A DNA stretch of 64,000 bases, from the IMG/VR virus record IMGVR_UViG_3300040801_005525, positions 1 through 64,000 of that record; one strand, given 5' to 3'. Origin of the DNA: a virus. A program made the translations under genes and the position numbers. The stretch's first letter is position 1. Each line of letters begins with the position of its first letter. The notes beneath the pieces were generated by a model, which was given only the letters and a program-made list of their open reading frames with translations, was not told the DNA's origin and searched no databases. Shown here in pieces: positions 7,594 through 17,315 of the stretch.

Positions 7594-8221
7594 GAAGAAG
7601 ATCGAATACACAGTCGAGAGCGTGATCTCGCAGGAGTTTCTGCCGCTTGGTTTCAAGGTGCTCTCGGAGCTCGTGAAGCCTGGTGGACAGGGCGTGTGCA
7701 GAGGATGGCACACCCTAAGAGGTCCATACACGCCCGAGGTGTACTCAGAGATGGTCGCGCACTTCAAGCGCTTCGGGTGGGAGGTCGTTCATGAGAGCAA
7801 GGGCGAACAGATCGTGGCGCTCATCAGACGTGAGAGTCTGTTCCACATCATGATCGGTCCCGAGGGCGATGGGTTGGCCGCCGAGCTCGAGGTGTATGAC
7901 ACCTGTGCAGGGTTTGCGGCGATGCTCGCCGTCACGCACGGAATCGAACCTGTCTTCTGTGAGCCTCCCAGCACCATCGTTCACATCCAGGACACCCTCG
8001 AGACGCTCGGGGAGCTCGCCGCGCGCTACCCCACAGAGCGTTTCGGACAGCTGCTCCTGAACGCCCTGCGCAGCCACGCTAGGCCGTTCCCGTTCAATGA
8101 CACGGATGCCTACGAGCGCAACATCAAGCTCTTCTCGCGGCTCTTCACGATGGGGGACAGGGAGATGCTCGACGCGATCCAGGGACGCCTCGAGGCACAT
8201 CCTGATGGGGGCGCGTCATGA
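7583..8221 (+). CDS. Early protein, unknown function
   Basis: A 212-residue protein starting MSGKKKIEYTVESVIS with a predicted mixed alpha/beta fold. The region HFKRFGWEVVHESKGEQIVA suggests a helix-strand unit repeated in a small domain. The C-terminal 60 residues are helical. It is coupled to the next gene by ATGA. No family recognised. Confidence 0.65.
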   Translation: MSGKKKIEYTVESVISQEFLPLGFKVLSELVKPGGQGVCRGWHTLRGPYTPEVYSEMVAHFKRFGWEVVHESKGEQIVALIRRESLFHIMIGPEGDGLAAELEVYDTCAGFAAMLAVTHGIEPVFCEPPSTIVHIQDTLETLGELAARYPTERFGQLLLNALRSHARPFPFNDTDAYERNIKLFSRLFTMGDREMLDAIQGRLEAHPDGGAS

Positions 8222-9075
8222 ACTTCGACAGCGGACGATATGCCGAGGTGCGCGCGCTGTGCACCACACGTCAAGGGGCGCACTGGTGGGAGGCGGCATG
8301 GATGCACGCGCGACGCATCGAGGAGCCCGAGCAGCGCGCGCTCGCTACAGAGCACGTACAGGGTACGTTCGGTGAACACCTTGCTCAAGTGCAGGAGACA
8401 GGCGCGCCACGTCATCATGGCCAGCTCAGGGCCTATCACTTCACTCCGGAGCACTTTGTACAAGCTCAGATGATCTTCAAGGTGATGACCAGGCACCTGC
8501 GTGACTACGCCTTTTACATGCAGGCCGCAGCGAAAATGGGGCTCGGTGACAAGCTTCTCATCGAGTCGCGTGGAGAGGATACCGCACGCACCACCACACG
8601 CATCAACTCCACGCGTACACTTGACCTCCGGGGGAAAGGCACGCCGCGCTACCATGATCTTCACATCCCGCTCATCTTCAAGGTGCCGAGCGTGGTGTGC
8701 TTTCTGGGCACTGTGAACAACCTGTTCGCCTTCGACCTCCACCCCGACCACATCCATGTCTGGGCCAACCCCTACAGCTACCACACAGCTCATCTCGCTC
8801 AGGAGTTCGAGAGGCGTGAAGGGTTCAAGGTCAGTTGCCTGTCCGAGCATGAAGGTGCTGAATTGCCCATGCCTGCTGTGAAGTACGGGACTGATCTCGA
8901 GCGACACGCCAAGTGGTCCTCGTCCAAGTGCATGCTTACCGAGCGTCAGATCCTCGAGCGTGCATGGCTGCTCCACGAGCGTCATGATCACCTTTGGCCC
9001 GAGGAGCTCGTGAAGCGCGTGCTCGAGATGAGCTACCTCGATGATGAGCGCTTCGAGAAGTGGGTGGGACAATGA
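8218..9075 (+). CDS. FGEVR-module protein A, unknown body
   Basis: A 285-residue protein. Its N-terminal 45 residues (RYAEVRALCTTRQGAHWWEA, then an Arg-rich helix) belong to a module shared with five other proteins in this window: 15254, 17338, 20420, 21157 and 26196 (minus). The body is unrelated to those and contains DLHIPLIFKVPSVVCFLGTV and several His residues. No enzymatic motif recognised. It is coupled by overlap to the Mom-like gene that follows. Confidence 0.65.
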   Translation: MNFDSGRYAEVRALCTTRQGAHWWEAAWMHARRIEEPEQRALATEHVQGTFGEHLAQVQETGAPRHHGQLRAYHFTPEHFVQAQMIFKVMTRHLRDYAFYMQAAAKMGLGDKLLIESRGEDTARTTTRINSTRTLDLRGKGTPRYHDLHIPLIFKVPSVVCFLGTVNNLFAFDLHPDHIHVWANPYSYHTAHLAQEFERREGFKVSCLSEHEGAELPMPAVKYGTDLERHAKWSSSKCMLTERQILERAWLLHERHDHLWPEELVKRVLEMSYLDDERFEKWVGQ

Positions 9076-9890
9076 GCTCTCTCGACTACGCACAGCGATG
9101 GGCGGAGCAGGAGTCACGCTGGGTGAGCCACAGGCAGCTCTGTGACACCCGCGTCATCGAGGCGGCGCCCCTCCCCGAGGAGGATGCCAAGGCGTTCATC
9201 ATGACCCACCACTACTCGGGCTCCTACCCTGCCGCGCGCTGCCGTGTGGGGATCTATGAGCGCGGCAAGCTCGTCGGGGTGTGCGTGTTTGGCATCCCCG
9301 CTGGCCCCACAGTCCTCGAGACGTGGACGGGGTTTGGCCAGGACGAGGCCGTGGAGCTCTCCAGGTTCGTGTTGCTCGACTCTGTGGGGTACAACGCCGA
9401 GAGCCATGCGTTGAAGCTCGCGCGCCGCGTCCTGCTCGAGCACCTCCCCGAGCTGCGCGCGCTCGTCTCCTTTTCTGACCCCGTGCCGCGCTACACGCTC
9501 ACAGGCGCGTGCGTGCTCCCTGGCCACCAGGGCACCATCTACCAAGCCACCAATGGCGCCTACCTCGGGCGCACAACCCCACGCACGCTCTACCTCGATG
9601 CCGAGGGTCGCGTCATCTCGGCGCGTGCCATGCAGAAGGTCGCCCAACAACAACGCGGCCATGAGTACGCCGAGCGGCTTATCGTCGAGGCCGGGGCACC
9701 TCCCCGACGCGCTGGCGAGTGCCCGAAGGCGTGGCTCGCGCGCGCGAAGAGGTGCCTGCGCAAGATACGACATACGGGCAACCACGGCTATGTCTGGGGC
9801 TTGAAGCGAGGCGTGAGTTTTGCCTCGAAAGCGGCCTATCCCAAGCAGGTCGATCCGGTCCAACTCGGGCTTGTGGGGGTGTCTCGATGA
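9072..9890 (+). CDS. Mom-like DNA base modification protein (GNAT fold)
   Basis: A 272-residue protein. Visible features of the Mom family: a HHYSG segment near residue 40, then VGIYERGKLVGVCVFGIP, ELSRFVLLD, the strand LVSFSDP, the HQGTIYQATNGAYLG block, and near the C-terminus GNHGYVWGLKR. Mom of phage Mu converts adenine to N6-(methylcarbamoyl)adenine and blocks many restriction enzymes; the related phage proteins share this GNAT-like core. It is coupled by overlap to genes before and after and lies just upstream of a DpdA-like transglycosylase and a C5-methyltransferase, making a DNA modification block. The family call rests on motif order; the exact product is not known. Confidence 0.75.
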   Translation: MSSLDYAQRWAEQESRWVSHRQLCDTRVIEAAPLPEEDAKAFIMTHHYSGSYPAARCRVGIYERGKLVGVCVFGIPAGPTVLETWTGFGQDEAVELSRFVLLDSVGYNAESHALKLARRVLLEHLPELRALVSFSDPVPRYTLTGACVLPGHQGTIYQATNGAYLGRTTPRTLYLDAEGRVISARAMQKVAQQQRGHEYAERLIVEAGAPPRRAGECPKAWLARAKRCLRKIRHTGNHGYVWGLKRGVSFASKAAYPKQVDPVQLGLVGVSR

Positions 9891-10057
9891 TGACCCAGGA
9901 CACCATATTTTGTCGGCCTCCTTACGACGCACACATGCTCGAGCTTGAAGAGAAGGGGCTCGTGTACTGGCAGCCCATTCATCTCTGGCTCCCCGATGGC
10001 GGGGTGTGGAAATTGACACCACAGGGCGTCGACTTCTTTGCGCAGAGCGTCCCATGA
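9887..10057 (+). CDS. Small protein between Mom-like and DpdA-like genes
   Basis: A 56-residue ORF. It begins in ATGA overlap with the Mom-like gene and ends in ATGA overlap with the DpdA-like gene, so it is almost certainly translated. The end (HLWLPDGGVWKLTPQGVDFF) is reminiscent of a winged-helix wing, but it is too short to classify. It may be an accessory subunit of the neighbouring modification enzymes; that is inferred from coupling only. Confidence 0.55.
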   Translation: MMTQDTIFCRPPYDAHMLELEEKGLVYWQPIHLWLPDGGVWKLTPQGVDFFAQSVP

Positions 10058-10683
10058 TCGGCTACGCATCACGCACAGGCACCAGGCGCAACCTGGACGC
10101 TTTGAGGGGAGCCGGGTGGCGCCTGCTCATCAGCGCCACGGGCGTGCACAGACACGAGGGATTCAGGTACGGCATCGACAATGGAGCCTGGACTGCATTT
10201 CAGGCGGGCGAGGACTGGGACACGCCCGCTTATCGTGGCCGCTTCGAGGCCCTGCTCATCACACATGGACAGGACGCAGACTGGATCGCAGTGCCAGACA
10301 TTGTGGAGGGTGGGCTCGTCTCGCTCGCCGTGAGTTTGCGGTGGCTCGAGATGCTGCGCGAGGAGTTCCCCGCGCAGACCTTCCTCATCCCCGTGCAAGA
10401 CGGGATGTGTGGTGAGGATCTCGACCCCTACTTGGATGCATGCACAGGCGTCTTCGTCGGGGGTTCGACCTCATGGAAAGAGCAAACCGCGCACATCTGG
10501 GGGGCGGTCTGTCGCAAGCATGACGCATGGCTCCATATCGGGCGTGTCAACTCCAGAAGGCGCATCAAGCTCTGCGCGCTCGCTGGAGCACATTCGTTCG
10601 ATGGCACGAGCGTGAGTCGTTTTGCAAAGACTCTCCCGAGGCTCGACGCCGAGCGGCGTCAGCAATCCTTCGTCTTCAACTAA
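10054..10683 (+). CDS. dpdA: DpdA-family (TGT-like) deazapurine DNA modification protein
   Basis: A 209-residue protein resembling the short phage DpdA/queuine tRNA-ribosyltransferase-like family. Motifs in order: YGIDNGAW near residue 46, ADWIAVPDIVEGG, LIPVQDGM, GVFVGGSTSWK, LHIGRVNSRRR and HSFDGTSVSRF. TGT-type enzymes exchange guanine for a 7-deazaguanine; DpdA does this in DNA and protects phages from restriction. No preQ0 synthesis genes (folE, queD, queE, queC) are visible here, so the base precursor would have to come from the host or from outside the window. Its neighbours are Mom-like and C5-methyltransferase genes. Family call is good; activity is inferred. Confidence 0.7.
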   Translation: MIGYASRTGTRRNLDALRGAGWRLLISATGVHRHEGFRYGIDNGAWTAFQAGEDWDTPAYRGRFEALLITHGQDADWIAVPDIVEGGLVSLAVSLRWLEMLREEFPAQTFLIPVQDGMCGEDLDPYLDACTGVFVGGSTSWKEQTAHIWGAVCRKHDAWLHIGRVNSRRRIKLCALAGAHSFDGTSVSRFAKTLPRLDAERRQQSFVFN

Positions 10684-10712
10684 GAGAACCACCCACCCCC
10701 TCCCCACAGCAC
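10682..10712 (-). repeat. Dispersed G-rich/pyrimidine element, copy 3
   Basis: Minus strand: GTGCTGTG4-A-G5-T-G3 then a TCTCTTA tail. The C-rich strand is sense. It begins exactly at the stop codon of the dpdA-like gene and fills the 40-bp gap before the methyltransferase start. Confidence 0.75.
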
Positions 10713-10723
10713 GGATTTTCATC

Positions 10724-12379
10724 ATGGTACAGACGCACAAGAAGAAGACCCCCTACACCTGCCTGACGCTCTTCAGCGGCATCGGGGGAGGGGCGCTCGG
10801 GTTCCAGCAGGCGGGCTATGAACTCGTCGGGGGACTCGACTCCTGGGAAGAGGCGTGCATCGACTACGAGTACCTCACGGGCAGCAAGGCGCACCACGTG
10901 GACCTCGCCACGCTCGAGCCGCACGAGCTGCGCGCCCTGGTCGGCGCGCGCAGGCCTGATGTCCTGTTCACCTCGCCGCCCTGCAAGGCCTTCTCGGGCT
11001 GTCTGCCGCAGGCCAAGTCCAGGACCGCGAAGTACGTGGCGCTCTCGAGCCTCGCCGAGCGTGGCGTGTGGCTCGCGCTCGAGGCCTGGGACACTCCACC
11101 TCCCATCATCCTGATCGAGAACGTGCCTCGTATCCAGTCACGCGGGCGCAACTGGCTCGATGCCATCACGAGCTTGCTCCACGGCTATGGCTACGCGGTG
11201 ACAGAGAGCACGCACGACTGCGGGGAGCTCGGTGGACTCGCGCAGAAGCGCAGGCGCTTTCTGATGATCGCCCGACACGTGCCTCAAGTCGGTGAGTTCG
11301 TCTATGAACCTCCAAAACAGGTGCTGCGGGGGGTGGGGGAGGTCTTCTCTCTGCTCCCTGTCCCTGTCCCAAAACAGGACGTGCAGCCGGGCGGGGTGAT
11401 GCACACGCTCGGGAACCTCTCGGCGATGAACTGGCTTCGGCTCGCCCTCGTGCCAGCTGGCGGGGACTGGCGAGACTTGCCCGAGCGCGTCATGCTCCCT
11501 CACCGCGCCGCGCGCCAGAATGGGTGCTATGGGGTCGTGGGGTGGGAGGATGCGGCGCGCACGGTCGTGGGGCATGCCACGGTGCAGGCGGCGCGCTCGA
11601 ACGTCGCAGACCCGAGGGTGACGTGTGTGAGGCGCCCGGGCAGCGAGGGCGTCACCTCCTGGGATGCCCCCTCGACCACCGTGATCGCACATGGGCGCCA
11701 CTTCAATGGACCCTGGCAGGTGGCAGACCCCCGAATCACGTTCGCGCCGAGGAGCTCGTGCTACGGGGTGCAGGAGGAAGGCGAGCCTGCATGCACGGTC
11801 ATCGGCCACGCCCACCACGACAAGGGACGCTACATCTTCGCCGATCCCCGTCTCACCTGCTCGCCACGCGCCACGGCCTACGGGGTGCAGTCCTTCGCGG
11901 AGAGCTCGGGGTGCATCGTCGGCCATGCATGCCATGACAACGGACGCTACGCGGTGGCTGATGAGCGCGACGTGATGCGCGCCACGCACGTCCTGCGCAC
12001 GCGTGATGGCGAGATCTACCTCGAAGGCGAGCCGCTCGACCTGGAGAGCAGAAAGGCCATGCACCTCGTCATCGCGGCGCGCGATGGCACGTGGCACAGG
12101 CCGATGACGACGCTCGAGCTCGCCGCGTTGCAGAGCTTCCCGATGTGGCATCAGGGCGACTGGCTCAAGCTCCATGGCGAGAACAAGGCTGCATGGCGCC
12201 AGAAGATCGGGAACGCGGTGCCGCCGATGACGGCCAAGGCCATCGCCGAGACGATCGCGCGAAGCCTCGATGCCTCGCTTCACGGTGCGTTTCTGATGGC
12301 CGGTGAGCCCGTGTGGGTGCAGCCTGATGATGTGGCAGAAGAGGTACAGGTCGATGATGGACTTGAACAACGAGGTTGA
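10724..12379 (+). CDS. DNA (cytosine-5) methyltransferase with four tandem TRD repeats
   Basis: A 551-residue enzyme starting at ATG 10724. Visible C5-MTase motifs: I (LFSGIGGGALGF, residues 16-27), IV with catalytic Cys87 (TSPPCKAFSG), VI (ENVP, 132-135), VIII (QKRRR, 174-178) and X (IGNAVPP near the C-terminus). Between VIII and X, residues about 268-423 consist of four tandem 39-residue units with the pattern YGV...TVIGHA.HD.GRY.VADPR. In the DNA the units are spaced exactly 117 bp apart (11525, 11642, 11759, 11876). It transfers methyl groups from SAM to cytosine; the repeats occupy the target-recognition region, so they may set specificity. No partner endonuclease is adjacent, suggesting self-protection. 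Confidence 0.93.
   Translation: MVQTHKKKTPYTCLTLFSGIGGGALGFQQAGYELVGGLDSWEEACIDYEYLTGSKAHHVDLATLEPHELRALVGARRPDVLFTSPPCKAFSGCLPQAKSRTAKYVALSSLAERGVWLALEAWDTPPPIILIENVPRIQSRGRNWLDAITSLLHGYGYAVTESTHDCGELGGLAQKRRRFLMIARHVPQVGEFVYEPPKQVLRGVGEVFSLLPVPVPKQDVQPGGVMHTLGNLSAMNWLRLALVPAGGDWRDLPERVMLPHRAARQNGCYGVVGWEDAARTVVGHATVQAARSNVADPRVTCVRRPGSEGVTSWDAPSTTVIAHGRHFNGPWQVADPRITFAPRSSCYGVQEEGEPACTVIGHAHHDKGRYIFADPRLTCSPRATAYGVQSFAESSGCIVGHACHDNGRYAVADERDVMRATHVLRTRDGEIYLEGEPLDLESRKAMHLVIAARDGTWHRPMTTLELAALQSFPMWHQGDWLKLHGENKAAWRQKIGNAVPPMTAKAIAETIARSLDASLHGAFLMAGEPVWVQPDDVAEEVQVDDGLEQRG
11321..11354 (+). repeat. Dispersed G-rich/pyrimidine element, copy 4
   Basis: GTGCTGC-G6-T-G5-AGG then TCTTCTCTCTGC. 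The G-rich strand is sense and in frame within the methyltransferase gene, just after motif VIII and before the repeat region, encoding LRGVGEVFSLL. Confidence 0.65.
11525..11992 (+). repeat. Four exact-period 117-bp coding repeats
   Basis: Units begin at 11525, 11642, 11759 and 11876 with no period variation. Each encodes 39 residues with a conserved GV...T(V/I)(I/V)(G/A)H and a terminal VADPR-like motif. Units 3 and 4 are the most alike in DNA (both start with a TACGGGGTGCAG stretch). They lie between motifs VIII and X of the methyltransferase. Confidence 0.85.
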
Positions 12380-12381
12380 AA

Positions 12382-12975
12382 ATGAAGGACAGGATCAAGG
12401 TAAGCGTCGCGCGTGATTTCAGCAGGTTTCCGGGCGGCCGCTACAGGGCGCAGGGGGAGACGAGCGGCGAGGCGCTGCGTGATGATGTGCTCGTGCCTGC
12501 GCTCAAGGAGGCCGAGGTCGTGGAGGTGTACCTGGGCGATGTGCTCGGGCTTGGCGCGAGCTTCCTCGAGGAGGCGTTTGGCGGGCTCGTGCGACGTGGG
12601 GGATTCACCCAGGCCGAGCTCGATCGCAAGCTCGTGCTCAAGGGAGGTATCGACTCGGATCACGAGGACATCAGGAGTTACATCGCAGACGCAGATGCCA
12701 TCAAAAGTGAGGAGCAGCTGTACGAGCTTGCTTTGCGTGAGGATCCATTCGAGCAGCCTGACCATGTCATGACGCAGAGTGAAGAGGGAAAGACAGGGAT
12801 CTGCTCGATGAGCGGGCTCAAGTGTCCCTATTGCCTCGAGCGCCAGAGTTTCTTCGATGAGCCCATGGAGGGTGACTCGGATGTGGCGCGATACACCTGT
12901 GAATCATGCGAGCGAGAGTTCATGCTCGAGCTGTCATGGGGAGTCACGTGCTACAACACATGGAGGGCAACGTGA
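12382..12975 (+). CDS. STAS-like (DUF4325) protein with C-terminal zinc ribbon
   Basis: A 197-residue protein. Residues 5-75 match the DUF4325 STAS-like pattern: ISVARDFS-like opening, RFPGGRYRAQGETSGEALR, and LGLGASFLEEAFGGLV. A C-terminal zinc ribbon has CPYC near residue 150 and CESC near residue 174. DUF4325 proteins are thought to act in signalling or regulation, and their role in phages is not established. The start is the ATG at 12382, 2 nt after the methyltransferase stop. A TTG 6 nt upstream is in frame but less likely. Confidence 0.75.
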   Translation: MKDRIKVSVARDFSRFPGGRYRAQGETSGEALRDDVLVPALKEAEVVEVYLGDVLGLGASFLEEAFGGLVRRGGFTQAELDRKLVLKGGIDSDHEDIRSYIADADAIKSEEQLYELALREDPFEQPDHVMTQSEEGKTGICSMSGLKCPYCLERQSFFDEPMEGDSDVARYTCESCEREFMLELSWGVTCYNTWRAT

Positions 12976-15826: not shown

Positions 15827-16515
15827 AGCTGATGATCGTGGGCGATGTGCATGCCCAATACAAGCACATGGAGCACGTCATCAGCTTGGCGCTCGAGCAG
15901 CTCGGGCCGGTCGACAGGATCGTGCAGGTGGGGGATTTTGGCTTCTACCCTTCTTATGTCAGGCGCCGCTGGCGCGACTTCGGGGTGCCCATGCACTTCA
16001 TCCGCGGTAACCACGAGGAGCACGATCGCCTCCCCATCGATCAGGTTGCGACAGGCCCGATGGCCACCCCATGCGGTCCCTGGGAGTTCATCGGTGATGG
16101 CTATGTGGATGAGCACGAGGTGCTCCACATCGGCGGCGCGTGGAGCATCGATCGGCAGTACAGGCAGCTCATCGCGGTGCAGAAGCCGGACTTCATCGAC
16201 GTGTGGCGGCCCACAGAGCAGATGAGCGAGGCGACGATCGAGCGGCTGTGGGGAGAGCTCAAAGGCCAGAGCTTTCGCGCGGTCATCACGCACGAAGCGC
16301 CCGAGTTCCTGTTTCCACAGCTCGTGACCACACGCGTCGAGGAGCCAAACCGCACGGCGGCTTTCCTCGAGCGGCTCGCGCGCTCCATCACGACCCCCAC
16401 CTGGTGCTTTGGCCATCACCACAAGGGCCTGCACGTGCACCACGATGGCACGAGCTTCCACTGCATCGACATGCTCGGCGGCACAAGCTCGCCGGTCCAC
16501 CTCCTGGAGATCTGA
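15823..16515 (+). CDS. Calcineurin-like metallophosphoesterase
   Basis: A 230-residue protein with all five family motifs: GDVH (residues 7-10), GDFG (about 37-40), GNHEEH (about 63), THEAP (about 149) and GHHH (about 194), which provide the two-metal centre. The family cleaves phosphoesters in nucleotides, nucleic acids or proteins; the substrate here is unknown. Its position next to thymidylate synthase and dCTP deaminase suggests nucleotide metabolism, although a phosphatase acting on phage or host RNA ends, with the RNA ligase at the right edge, is another possibility. The start at 15823 is inside the previous gene's stop. Confidence 0.88.
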
Positions 16516-16517
16516 CC

Positions 16518-17315
16518 ATGATGTATGACTACCTCGACCTGCTCGGAGATGTGCTCGAGCACGGCACCCCATCAGATGACCGCACAGGGACGGGCACCCG
16601 CTCGATCTTTGGCGCGCAGCTGCGCTTCGACCTCGCGCAGGGCTTCCCGGCCGTGACCACCAAGCGCCTCTACTTCAAGGGCGTGGTGTGCGAGCTGCTC
16701 TGGTTCCTCAAAGGCTCCACGAACTCGCGCGAGCTCGAGCGCCAGGGCGTCAAGATCTGGCGTGAATGGGCGGATGCAAACGGCGAGCTCGGGCCGGTGT
16801 ACGGGGCGCAGTGGCGATCCTGGGCTGGCGCCGATGGCGCGACCCATGACCAGATCGCGCAGGTCATCGCGTCGATCCGCCACAACCCCAACTCGCGCCG
16901 GCACATCGTGAGCGCGTGGAACGTCGCGGAGCTCGACCAGATGGCGCTCCCCCCATGTCACGTGCTCTTCCAGTTCTATGTGAGGGGTGGAAAGCTCTCG
17001 TGCCAGCTCTACCAGAGGAGCGCTGACCTGTTCCTGGGTGTGCCGTTCAACATCGCGAGCTACGTGCTCCTGACGCACATGATCGCGCAGGTCACCGGCC
17101 TCGAGGTGGGGGAGTTCATTCACACCTTTGGTGACGCGCACATCTATGAGAACCACGTCGAGCAGGTGCGTGAACAGCTCTCGCGCAGGCCTTATGATGC
17201 GCCACGTCTTGTACTCGACCCTGGCATCACGCACATTGATCACTTCGCCCTCGAGCACATCCGCCTCGAGGGGTATGAGCACCACCCCGCCATCAAGGCG
17301 CCGATCGCGGTGTGA
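16518..17315 (+). CDS. thyA: Thymidylate synthase
   Basis: A 265-residue enzyme of normal ThyA length. Visible: the [12 protein letters not shown] nucleotide-binding loop, [20 protein letters not shown] helix, catalytic Cys147 in [28 protein letters not shown] with Asn178, and the C-terminal IKAPIAV. Asn at position 178 fits use of dUMP; dCMP hydroxymethylases carry Asp there. It methylates dUMP to dTMP with methylene-tetrahydrofolate. Hydroxymethyl-dUMP synthesis cannot be ruled out by sequence alone. GGAG lies 9 nt upstream of ATG 16518. Carrying thyA with a dCTP deaminase gives the phage its own dTTP supply. Confidence 0.95.

Follow-up and report, generated by a model that had tools for sequence, protein, structure and literature searches.

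Does a phage modify its own DNA in several different ways through a single run of adjacent genes? The question is raised by positions 9072–12379 of a 64,000-nucleotide stretch (hereafter, the window) of the IMG/VR virus record IMGVR_UViG_3300040801_005525, an 82,837-bp record (L021 denotes its remainder beyond the window; other L numbers denote loci used for comparison) that carries the terminase, portal, major capsid, and tape-measure genes of a tailed phage, all on the minus strand. On the plus strand, genes for a Mom-like protein, a 56-aa product, a compact tRNA-guanine transglycosylase (TGT)-like protein, and a C5-cytosine methyltransferase follow each other in this order. A first-pass annotation had described these four open reading frames (ORFs) as adjoining with overlaps or short gaps, and all are located where it placed them (Table 1). 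We slightly favor the explanation that this operon-like gene run encodes several modifications that jointly block restriction. Adenines would receive a Mom-type group at N6 from the Mom-like enzyme. Guanine would be swapped for a host-derived 7-deazaguanine (preQ0 or a derivative) by the compact TGT-like enzyme, whose mechanism would be of TGT type and rely on a pair of catalytic aspartates (D42 and D183). Cytosines within a recognition sequence would be methylated by the C5 methyltransferase; together, the three modifications would block different restriction enzymes. In this scheme, we infer that DNA is the substrate, that the host supplies the base, which base it is, and that the function is anti-restriction.

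The Mom-like call was borne out by both profile and fold. The protein encoded at 9072–9890 matched PF25680 (Mom) at 3.8e-28 (99 bits vs. a curated cut-off of 27.1) and phrog_1384 at 6.8e-30. Mu Mom (8BV8) was its sole PDB sequence match below E 0.01 and also the first PDB fold match (E 1.6e-11; template modeling [TM] score 0.68 by target) of a structure model with a predicted local distance difference test (pLDDT) score of 74.8. Its HYS, ELSR, NAES, SFSD, and YQATN motifs align with Mu Mom; H47, E95, S111, and Y157 are invariant in an eight-member Mom alignment and D136 aligns with Mu SFAD, and we take these to be the catalytic residues. The protein is predicted to be an N6-adenine methylcarbamoyl-type transferase. 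Few relatives of the Mom and C5 enzymes were found with single-sequence patterns; 68 Mom loci came from an alignment-based query, and a Mom scan of genome contigs returned one distant match. An 11-residue insertion beside SFSD is modeled with low confidence, yet it is common to the Mom relatives L203–L219 and so marks a Mom subfamily; an assembly error was ruled out as its origin because relatives have it too.

Profile evidence likewise agreed with the C5-methyltransferase call. The protein encoded at 10724–12379 matched PF00145 (4.9e-27) and phrog_116 (9.6e-51), is 35–39% identical to full-length phage relatives, and contains motifs I, IV (PPC), VI (ENV), VIII (QKRRR), and X; judging from these features, it is very probably a C5-cytosine DNA methyltransferase. 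Its variable (target-recognition) region comprises about four imperfect repeats (DPR..T...YGV...TVIGHA..D.GR), and no tandem repeats are visible there at the DNA level.

The third enzyme had been called DpdA/TGT-like, a description that stands at the level of fold, active site, and context but not of family, since the protein belongs to a separate compact family, unrecognized by the Pfam and NCBIfam models of TGT or DpdA. Its AlphaFold2 (AF2) model (pLDDT 87.7; predicted TM score [pTM] 0.87) retrieved only TGTs among the first 22 PDB fold matches (E 7.7e-6 to 3.7e-5; query TM ~0.6); a generic TIM barrel came next at 4e-5, so the specificity for the TGT fold is moderate. Viral fold matches included the nt-1 protein R9TGF0 (Vibrio) and proteins of Mufasa8, Sonali, and Motura that are annotated as queuine transferases. 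Sequence profiles of the compact family did not find TGT in the PDB, which only the fold comparison did. Deep profiles of the compact family and DpdA, which replaced a weak initial comparison with a three-sequence DpdA profile, were aligned by hhalign (94%, E 1.3e-7), pairing DNGA with DSGAF, PDIV with LDVIGD, and a GG pair.

Across 79 sequences of the compact family, D42, D82, Q115, G136-G137, and D183 are near-invariant (counts for D42 and D183 in Table 1). We predict that D42 and D183 are two catalytic aspartates and that D82, Q115, and G136-G137 contact the base. D42 would be the counterpart of the TGT catalytic Asp102 and D183 that of the nucleophile Asp280 (TGT numbering); we infer both counterparts, that of D42 from the order of strand-end residues. 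The protein stops 26 residues after D183, and no CxCxxC-type site was found that would correspond to the zinc-binding C-terminal region of tRNA TGTs. It is a predicted base-exchange (transglycosylase) enzyme.

Relatives of the compact protein are encoded in at least 570 IMG/VR stretches, and their neighborhoods show a linkage to deazaguanine genes. Among 97 short-TGT loci, we found QueC in 16, QueD in 8, QueE in 8, FolE in 4, full-length DpdA in 3, a C5 methyltransferase in 12, and Mom in none; 26 were without any deazaguanine gene. Transporters of PF02592, the QPTR/YhhQ family that imports queuosine precursors and is sometimes fused to bacterial TGT (PMC11130926), were present in 54 loci, 49 of them within 100 bp and on the same strand, and all 33 transporters that were scanned belong to PF02592. 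The 80 DpdA loci included QueC in 65, FolE in 61, and PF02592 in 8, and the 69 Mom loci included FolE once and no PF02592 or other deazaguanine gene; related contigs were left uncollapsed in these locus counts, and P values therefore overstate independence. QueC occurred in 11 of the first 26 short-TGT records vs. 0 of 6 Mom- or methyltransferase-seeded records searched alongside. Of the 24 phage records that encode the compact protein, 5 have QueC, compared with 329 of 50,697 overall (binomial P 4e-7, uncorrected for relatedness; within the count of 5/24, two near-duplicate accessions were inferred from their kin). In a phylogenetic tree, the compact family forms two clades. One is operonic with the PF02592 queuosine-precursor transporter. 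The window protein falls in the other, whose 19 members (support 1.0) lack transporters; in 9 of them, a Que or DpdA gene is a neighbor. The window protein's nearest relative, L002, is encoded by a gene that overlaps the QueC gene.

Several compact TGT loci have additional features. In L007, L009, and L010, the gene order is QueC, a further gene of ~116–151 aa, and compact TGT; the further gene is cupin-like by eye (L007, L009) and may represent an extra base-supply step. Genes with a PAPS-reductase domain (PF01507) lie near the compact TGT gene in Erythrobacter phage R6L (L029:7463-8506) and Rhodococcus phage ReqiPine5 (L030:6625-7542). Escherichia phage SHIN8 (L035:4648-5240) carries a 94-aa and a 109-aa ORF that overlap, in place of the single 194-aa ORF of Vibrio phage R29Z, suggesting a frameshift or a split gene, and the 499-aa marine viral protein BFVD A0A0F7L9Z1 joins a compact-TGT-like part (44% identical) to ~290 more residues.

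From where would the window's phage obtain a deazaguanine? DpdA-made deazaguanines in DNA and their anti-restriction effect have been described, as have DpdA-only phages, whose base source was left unresolved (PMC6884629). The earlier statement that no preQ0 pathway genes are visible held for QueC, QueD, QueE, and FolE across the whole 82,837-bp record: it contains no QueC, QueD, or FolE, no radical-SAM gene and hence no QueE, and no PF02592 or phrog_887 DpdA, an absence qualified by the possible incompleteness of the record. The base would thus come from the host, if the enzyme acts on DNA.

This lack of a base source is one of several points that weigh against the favored explanation. Phage Orion, which has DpdA but no base supply in itself or in its host (the latter without preQ0 synthesis), has unmodified DNA (PMC6884629). 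Profile searches, which could have moved either enzyme to another family, placed the 9072 protein in Mom and the 10054 protein in phrog_15826 (5.6e-38; function not assigned), with a weak match to phrog_887 (queuine tRNA-ribosyltransferase; E 0.25) and none to any TGT or DpdA model of Pfam or NCBIfam, including PF01702 and PF23859. Four records carry full-length DpdA and the compact protein together, and a DpdA knockout in phage CAjan abolishes dPreQ0 (PMC6884629); therefore, the function of the compact protein may be a different one. Mom was found in 0 of 50 further short-TGT records and in 1 of the 26 earlier ones (Synechococcus phage Ssp-JY42, ~15 kb from the TGT gene). Finally, gene packing is equally tight upstream (genes 6520, 7583, and 8218) and downstream (12376 onward).

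These last two points bear on the strongest rival explanation, which we consider rather unlikely: three modification or host-takeover genes, each useful alone, were acquired separately in a permissive region and form no joint system, with the 56-aa ORF as a chance small gene. The junctions themselves are tight. The Mom stop and the 56-aa start have a common ATGA (9887-9890, 4 nt), as do the 56-aa stop and the TGT-like start (10054-10057, 4 nt), and a 40-nt gap precedes the methyltransferase ATG at 10724. However, the Mom ATG at 9072 lies in a 4-nt overlap (9072-9075) with the gene at 8218, so coupling reaches beyond the modification genes, and the gene at 12376..12975 is packed against the methyltransferase. 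The proposed coupled block is therefore real in its tight junctions but not in its limits: the four genes are part of a longer operon-like stretch without clear edges, in which unrelated genes adjoin them at either end. It is also consistent with separate acquisition that, among relatives, each enzyme is usually encoded apart from the other two and that DNA methyltransferase genes are generally common near such loci (read by sequence, partly profile-checked).

Recurrence of the layout argues against separate acquisition. An 81.6-kb contig (L210) contains, in order, a D12 adenine methyltransferase (PF02086), Mom (PF25680), a 57-aa ORF that overlaps the next gene by TGATG, DpdA (PF23859, 1.9e-45; phrog_1279), and an N6/N4 methyltransferase (PF01555). 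Its terminase does not match that of the window and no relationship was detected between the 57-aa and 56-aa ORFs; L210 appears to be an unrelated phage contig that repeats the window's layout independently with different versions of the parts. Of 50 Mom records, one matched phrog_1279, a DpdA family. The single recurrence, in which the small ORF is unrelated and the TGT-type enzyme is from another subfamily, is suggestive. In addition, at least two lineages have a C5 methyltransferase gene adjoining Mom of this subfamily: it lies just downstream of Mom in L204–L208, closely similar contigs that count as one lineage, and immediately upstream of it in L221. The idea of three stacked chemistries gains weight from L210 and from these adjoining methyltransferases, even though the trio is apart in most relatives. 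Stacking also has a precedent in PA5oct, which has five Mom enzymes and a deazaguanine system (PMC7824862). This published combination, the tight packing that extends into the flanking genes, and the lack of Mom in the 50 further short-TGT records speak against a dedicated cassette. Given L210, combining several predicted DNA disguises looks like a strategy that recurs.

It is less probable still that the substrate of the compact protein is RNA, either tRNA (the queuosine of host tRNA might be changed during infection, for instance) or another kind, leaving only Mom and the C5 enzyme to modify DNA. Its nearest solved folds are tRNA enzymes, Q115 is a TGT-type glutamine where aligned DpdA proteins have His, and it coexists with full-length DpdA, but the published DpdA2 likewise is without the DpdA histidine (PMC6884629). 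Moreover, the compact protein lacks the zinc-site region found at the C-terminus of tRNA TGTs, and its gene is often found among DNA methyltransferase genes. Eukaryotic TGT is a pair of a catalytic and a non-catalytic subunit, and the TGT fold could have been kept here for a partner subunit, for binding modified DNA, or for another base; the lack of a base source in the window's record and the coexistence with DpdA elsewhere fit such a role, but a degenerate partner would not need the essentially invariant predicted catalytic aspartates and base-contact residues. We consider this role very unlikely.

Table 1 Features of the gene run and its flanks (window coordinates).
Feature	Coordinates	Strand	Basis
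Upstream gene, 285 aa, function not assigned	8218..9075	+	No family match
Mom-like GNAT-fold protein, 272 aa	9072..9890	+	PF25680, phrog_1384, fold match 8BV8
56-aa ORF, orphan	9887..10057	+	ATGA overlap with each neighbor, coding-like composition
Compact TGT/DpdA-like TIM-barrel protein, 209 aa, phrog_15826	10054..10683	+	AF2 fold, hhalign
D42 codon (DNGA)	10177..10179	+	Asp in 78/79 sequences
D183 codon (FDGT)	10600..10602	+	Asp in 79/79 sequences
C5-cytosine DNA methyltransferase, 551 aa	10724..12379	+	PF00145, phrog_116
STAS-like DUF4325 + zinc-ribbon-like C-terminus gene	12376..12975	+	PF14213 1e-10

The 56-aa ORF has a coding-like G+C content by codon position (0.62/0.38/0.71), and the same frame upstream does not. 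We found no family or PDB match (best phage match E 0.6) and no relative among 266 loci. A Com-like role was ruled out: Mu Com has two CxxC pairs and overlaps mom, whereas the 56-aa ORF lies downstream of mom, with a single Cys and no zinc Cys. A winged-helix resemblance (LEEKGLV...WKLTPQG) was noted by eye only, without database support. The sole hint to its role is the small coupled ORF at the equivalent place in L210. The gene at 8218-9075 had no significant Pfam, PHROG, or NCBIfam match and no relatives in the fetched loci.

Further genes lie elsewhere in the record. A Dam-type N6-adenine methyltransferase (PF05869, 6.5e-9; L021:5102-5842, record 68601-69341, minus) is a further modification gene. 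A thymidylate synthase (PF00303) is encoded at window 16140-17315, probably with its true start at an internal ATG near 16510; its reading as a hydroxymethylase altering the fourth base is unsupported, its PPCH and PFN motifs being canonical. ParB-like and ParA-like partition ORFs, judged by sequence only, lie at the record end (record 81226-82834, L021, minus).

Returning to the favored explanation of several stacked modifications, we tentatively propose a broader model. Phrog_15826 may be a widespread phage 'salvage' base-exchange enzyme, with one clade importing the base via a phage PF02592 transporter and the other using host- or phage-made preQ0; in a few phages, that or a similar enzyme would be stacked with Mom and DNA methyltransferases, altering three of the four bases. 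If this is true, these phages shield their DNA by several different base changes simultaneously, and many obtain deazaguanine by uptake or from the host rather than by their own synthesis. Among the new points, the link of compact TGTs to transporters of queuosine precursors lends itself best to testing. Unlike the YhhQ transporter in an earlier survey, which showed no correlation with any phage group (PMC6884629), the transporter is tightly tied here to one compact TGT family, making the base supply of 'DpdA-only' phages directly testable in cultured phages such as GreaseLightnin (Mycobacterium smegmatis).

The gene run can be compared with several known systems. Its C5 methyltransferase has full-length similarity (35–39%) to the phrog_116 enzymes of Marinobacter PS3, Pseudomonas H66, and LKA5; in the window it comes after the Mom and TGT-like genes, and the phrog_116 enzymes were compared at the protein level. 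Mu Mom (PDB 8BV8; PF25680) has the same GNAT-type fold and HYS, ELxR, NxES, SFxD, and YQAxN motifs, but the window protein is ~30 residues longer and carries the 11-residue insertion, and in contrast to Mu com-mom, there is no Com-like zinc finger upstream of mom. With the DpdA proteins of 9g, CAjan, and nt-1 (PMC6884629; PF23859; phrog_887, phrog_1279), the compact protein shares the TGT-type fold, the D(S/N)GA and LDV/PDV motifs, GG, and the second Asp, and its relatives are similarly linked to QueC, QueD, and FolE. It differs in its length of 209 aa, in being unmatched by DpdA models, and in the Gln that replaces the DpdA His, and its record is without the synthesis genes of those systems. 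Annotators have already given the label 'DpdA-like tRNA-guanine transglycosylase' to Arthrobacter and Mycobacterium phage members of the same compact family (Sonali gp81, Aoka gp40, and GreaseLightnin gp55). These belong to the other clade, and Aoka and GreaseLightnin have a PF02592 transporter beside the compact TGT gene, whereas the window's clade has none. Like the window, PA5oct and other jumbo phages combine Mom-type and deazaguanine systems in one phage (PMC7824862), but PA5oct does so in a jumbo genome with a deazaguanine synthesis/incorporation system, whereas the window, without synthesis genes, has a single compact TGT-like enzyme in an operon-like run with a C5 methyltransferase.

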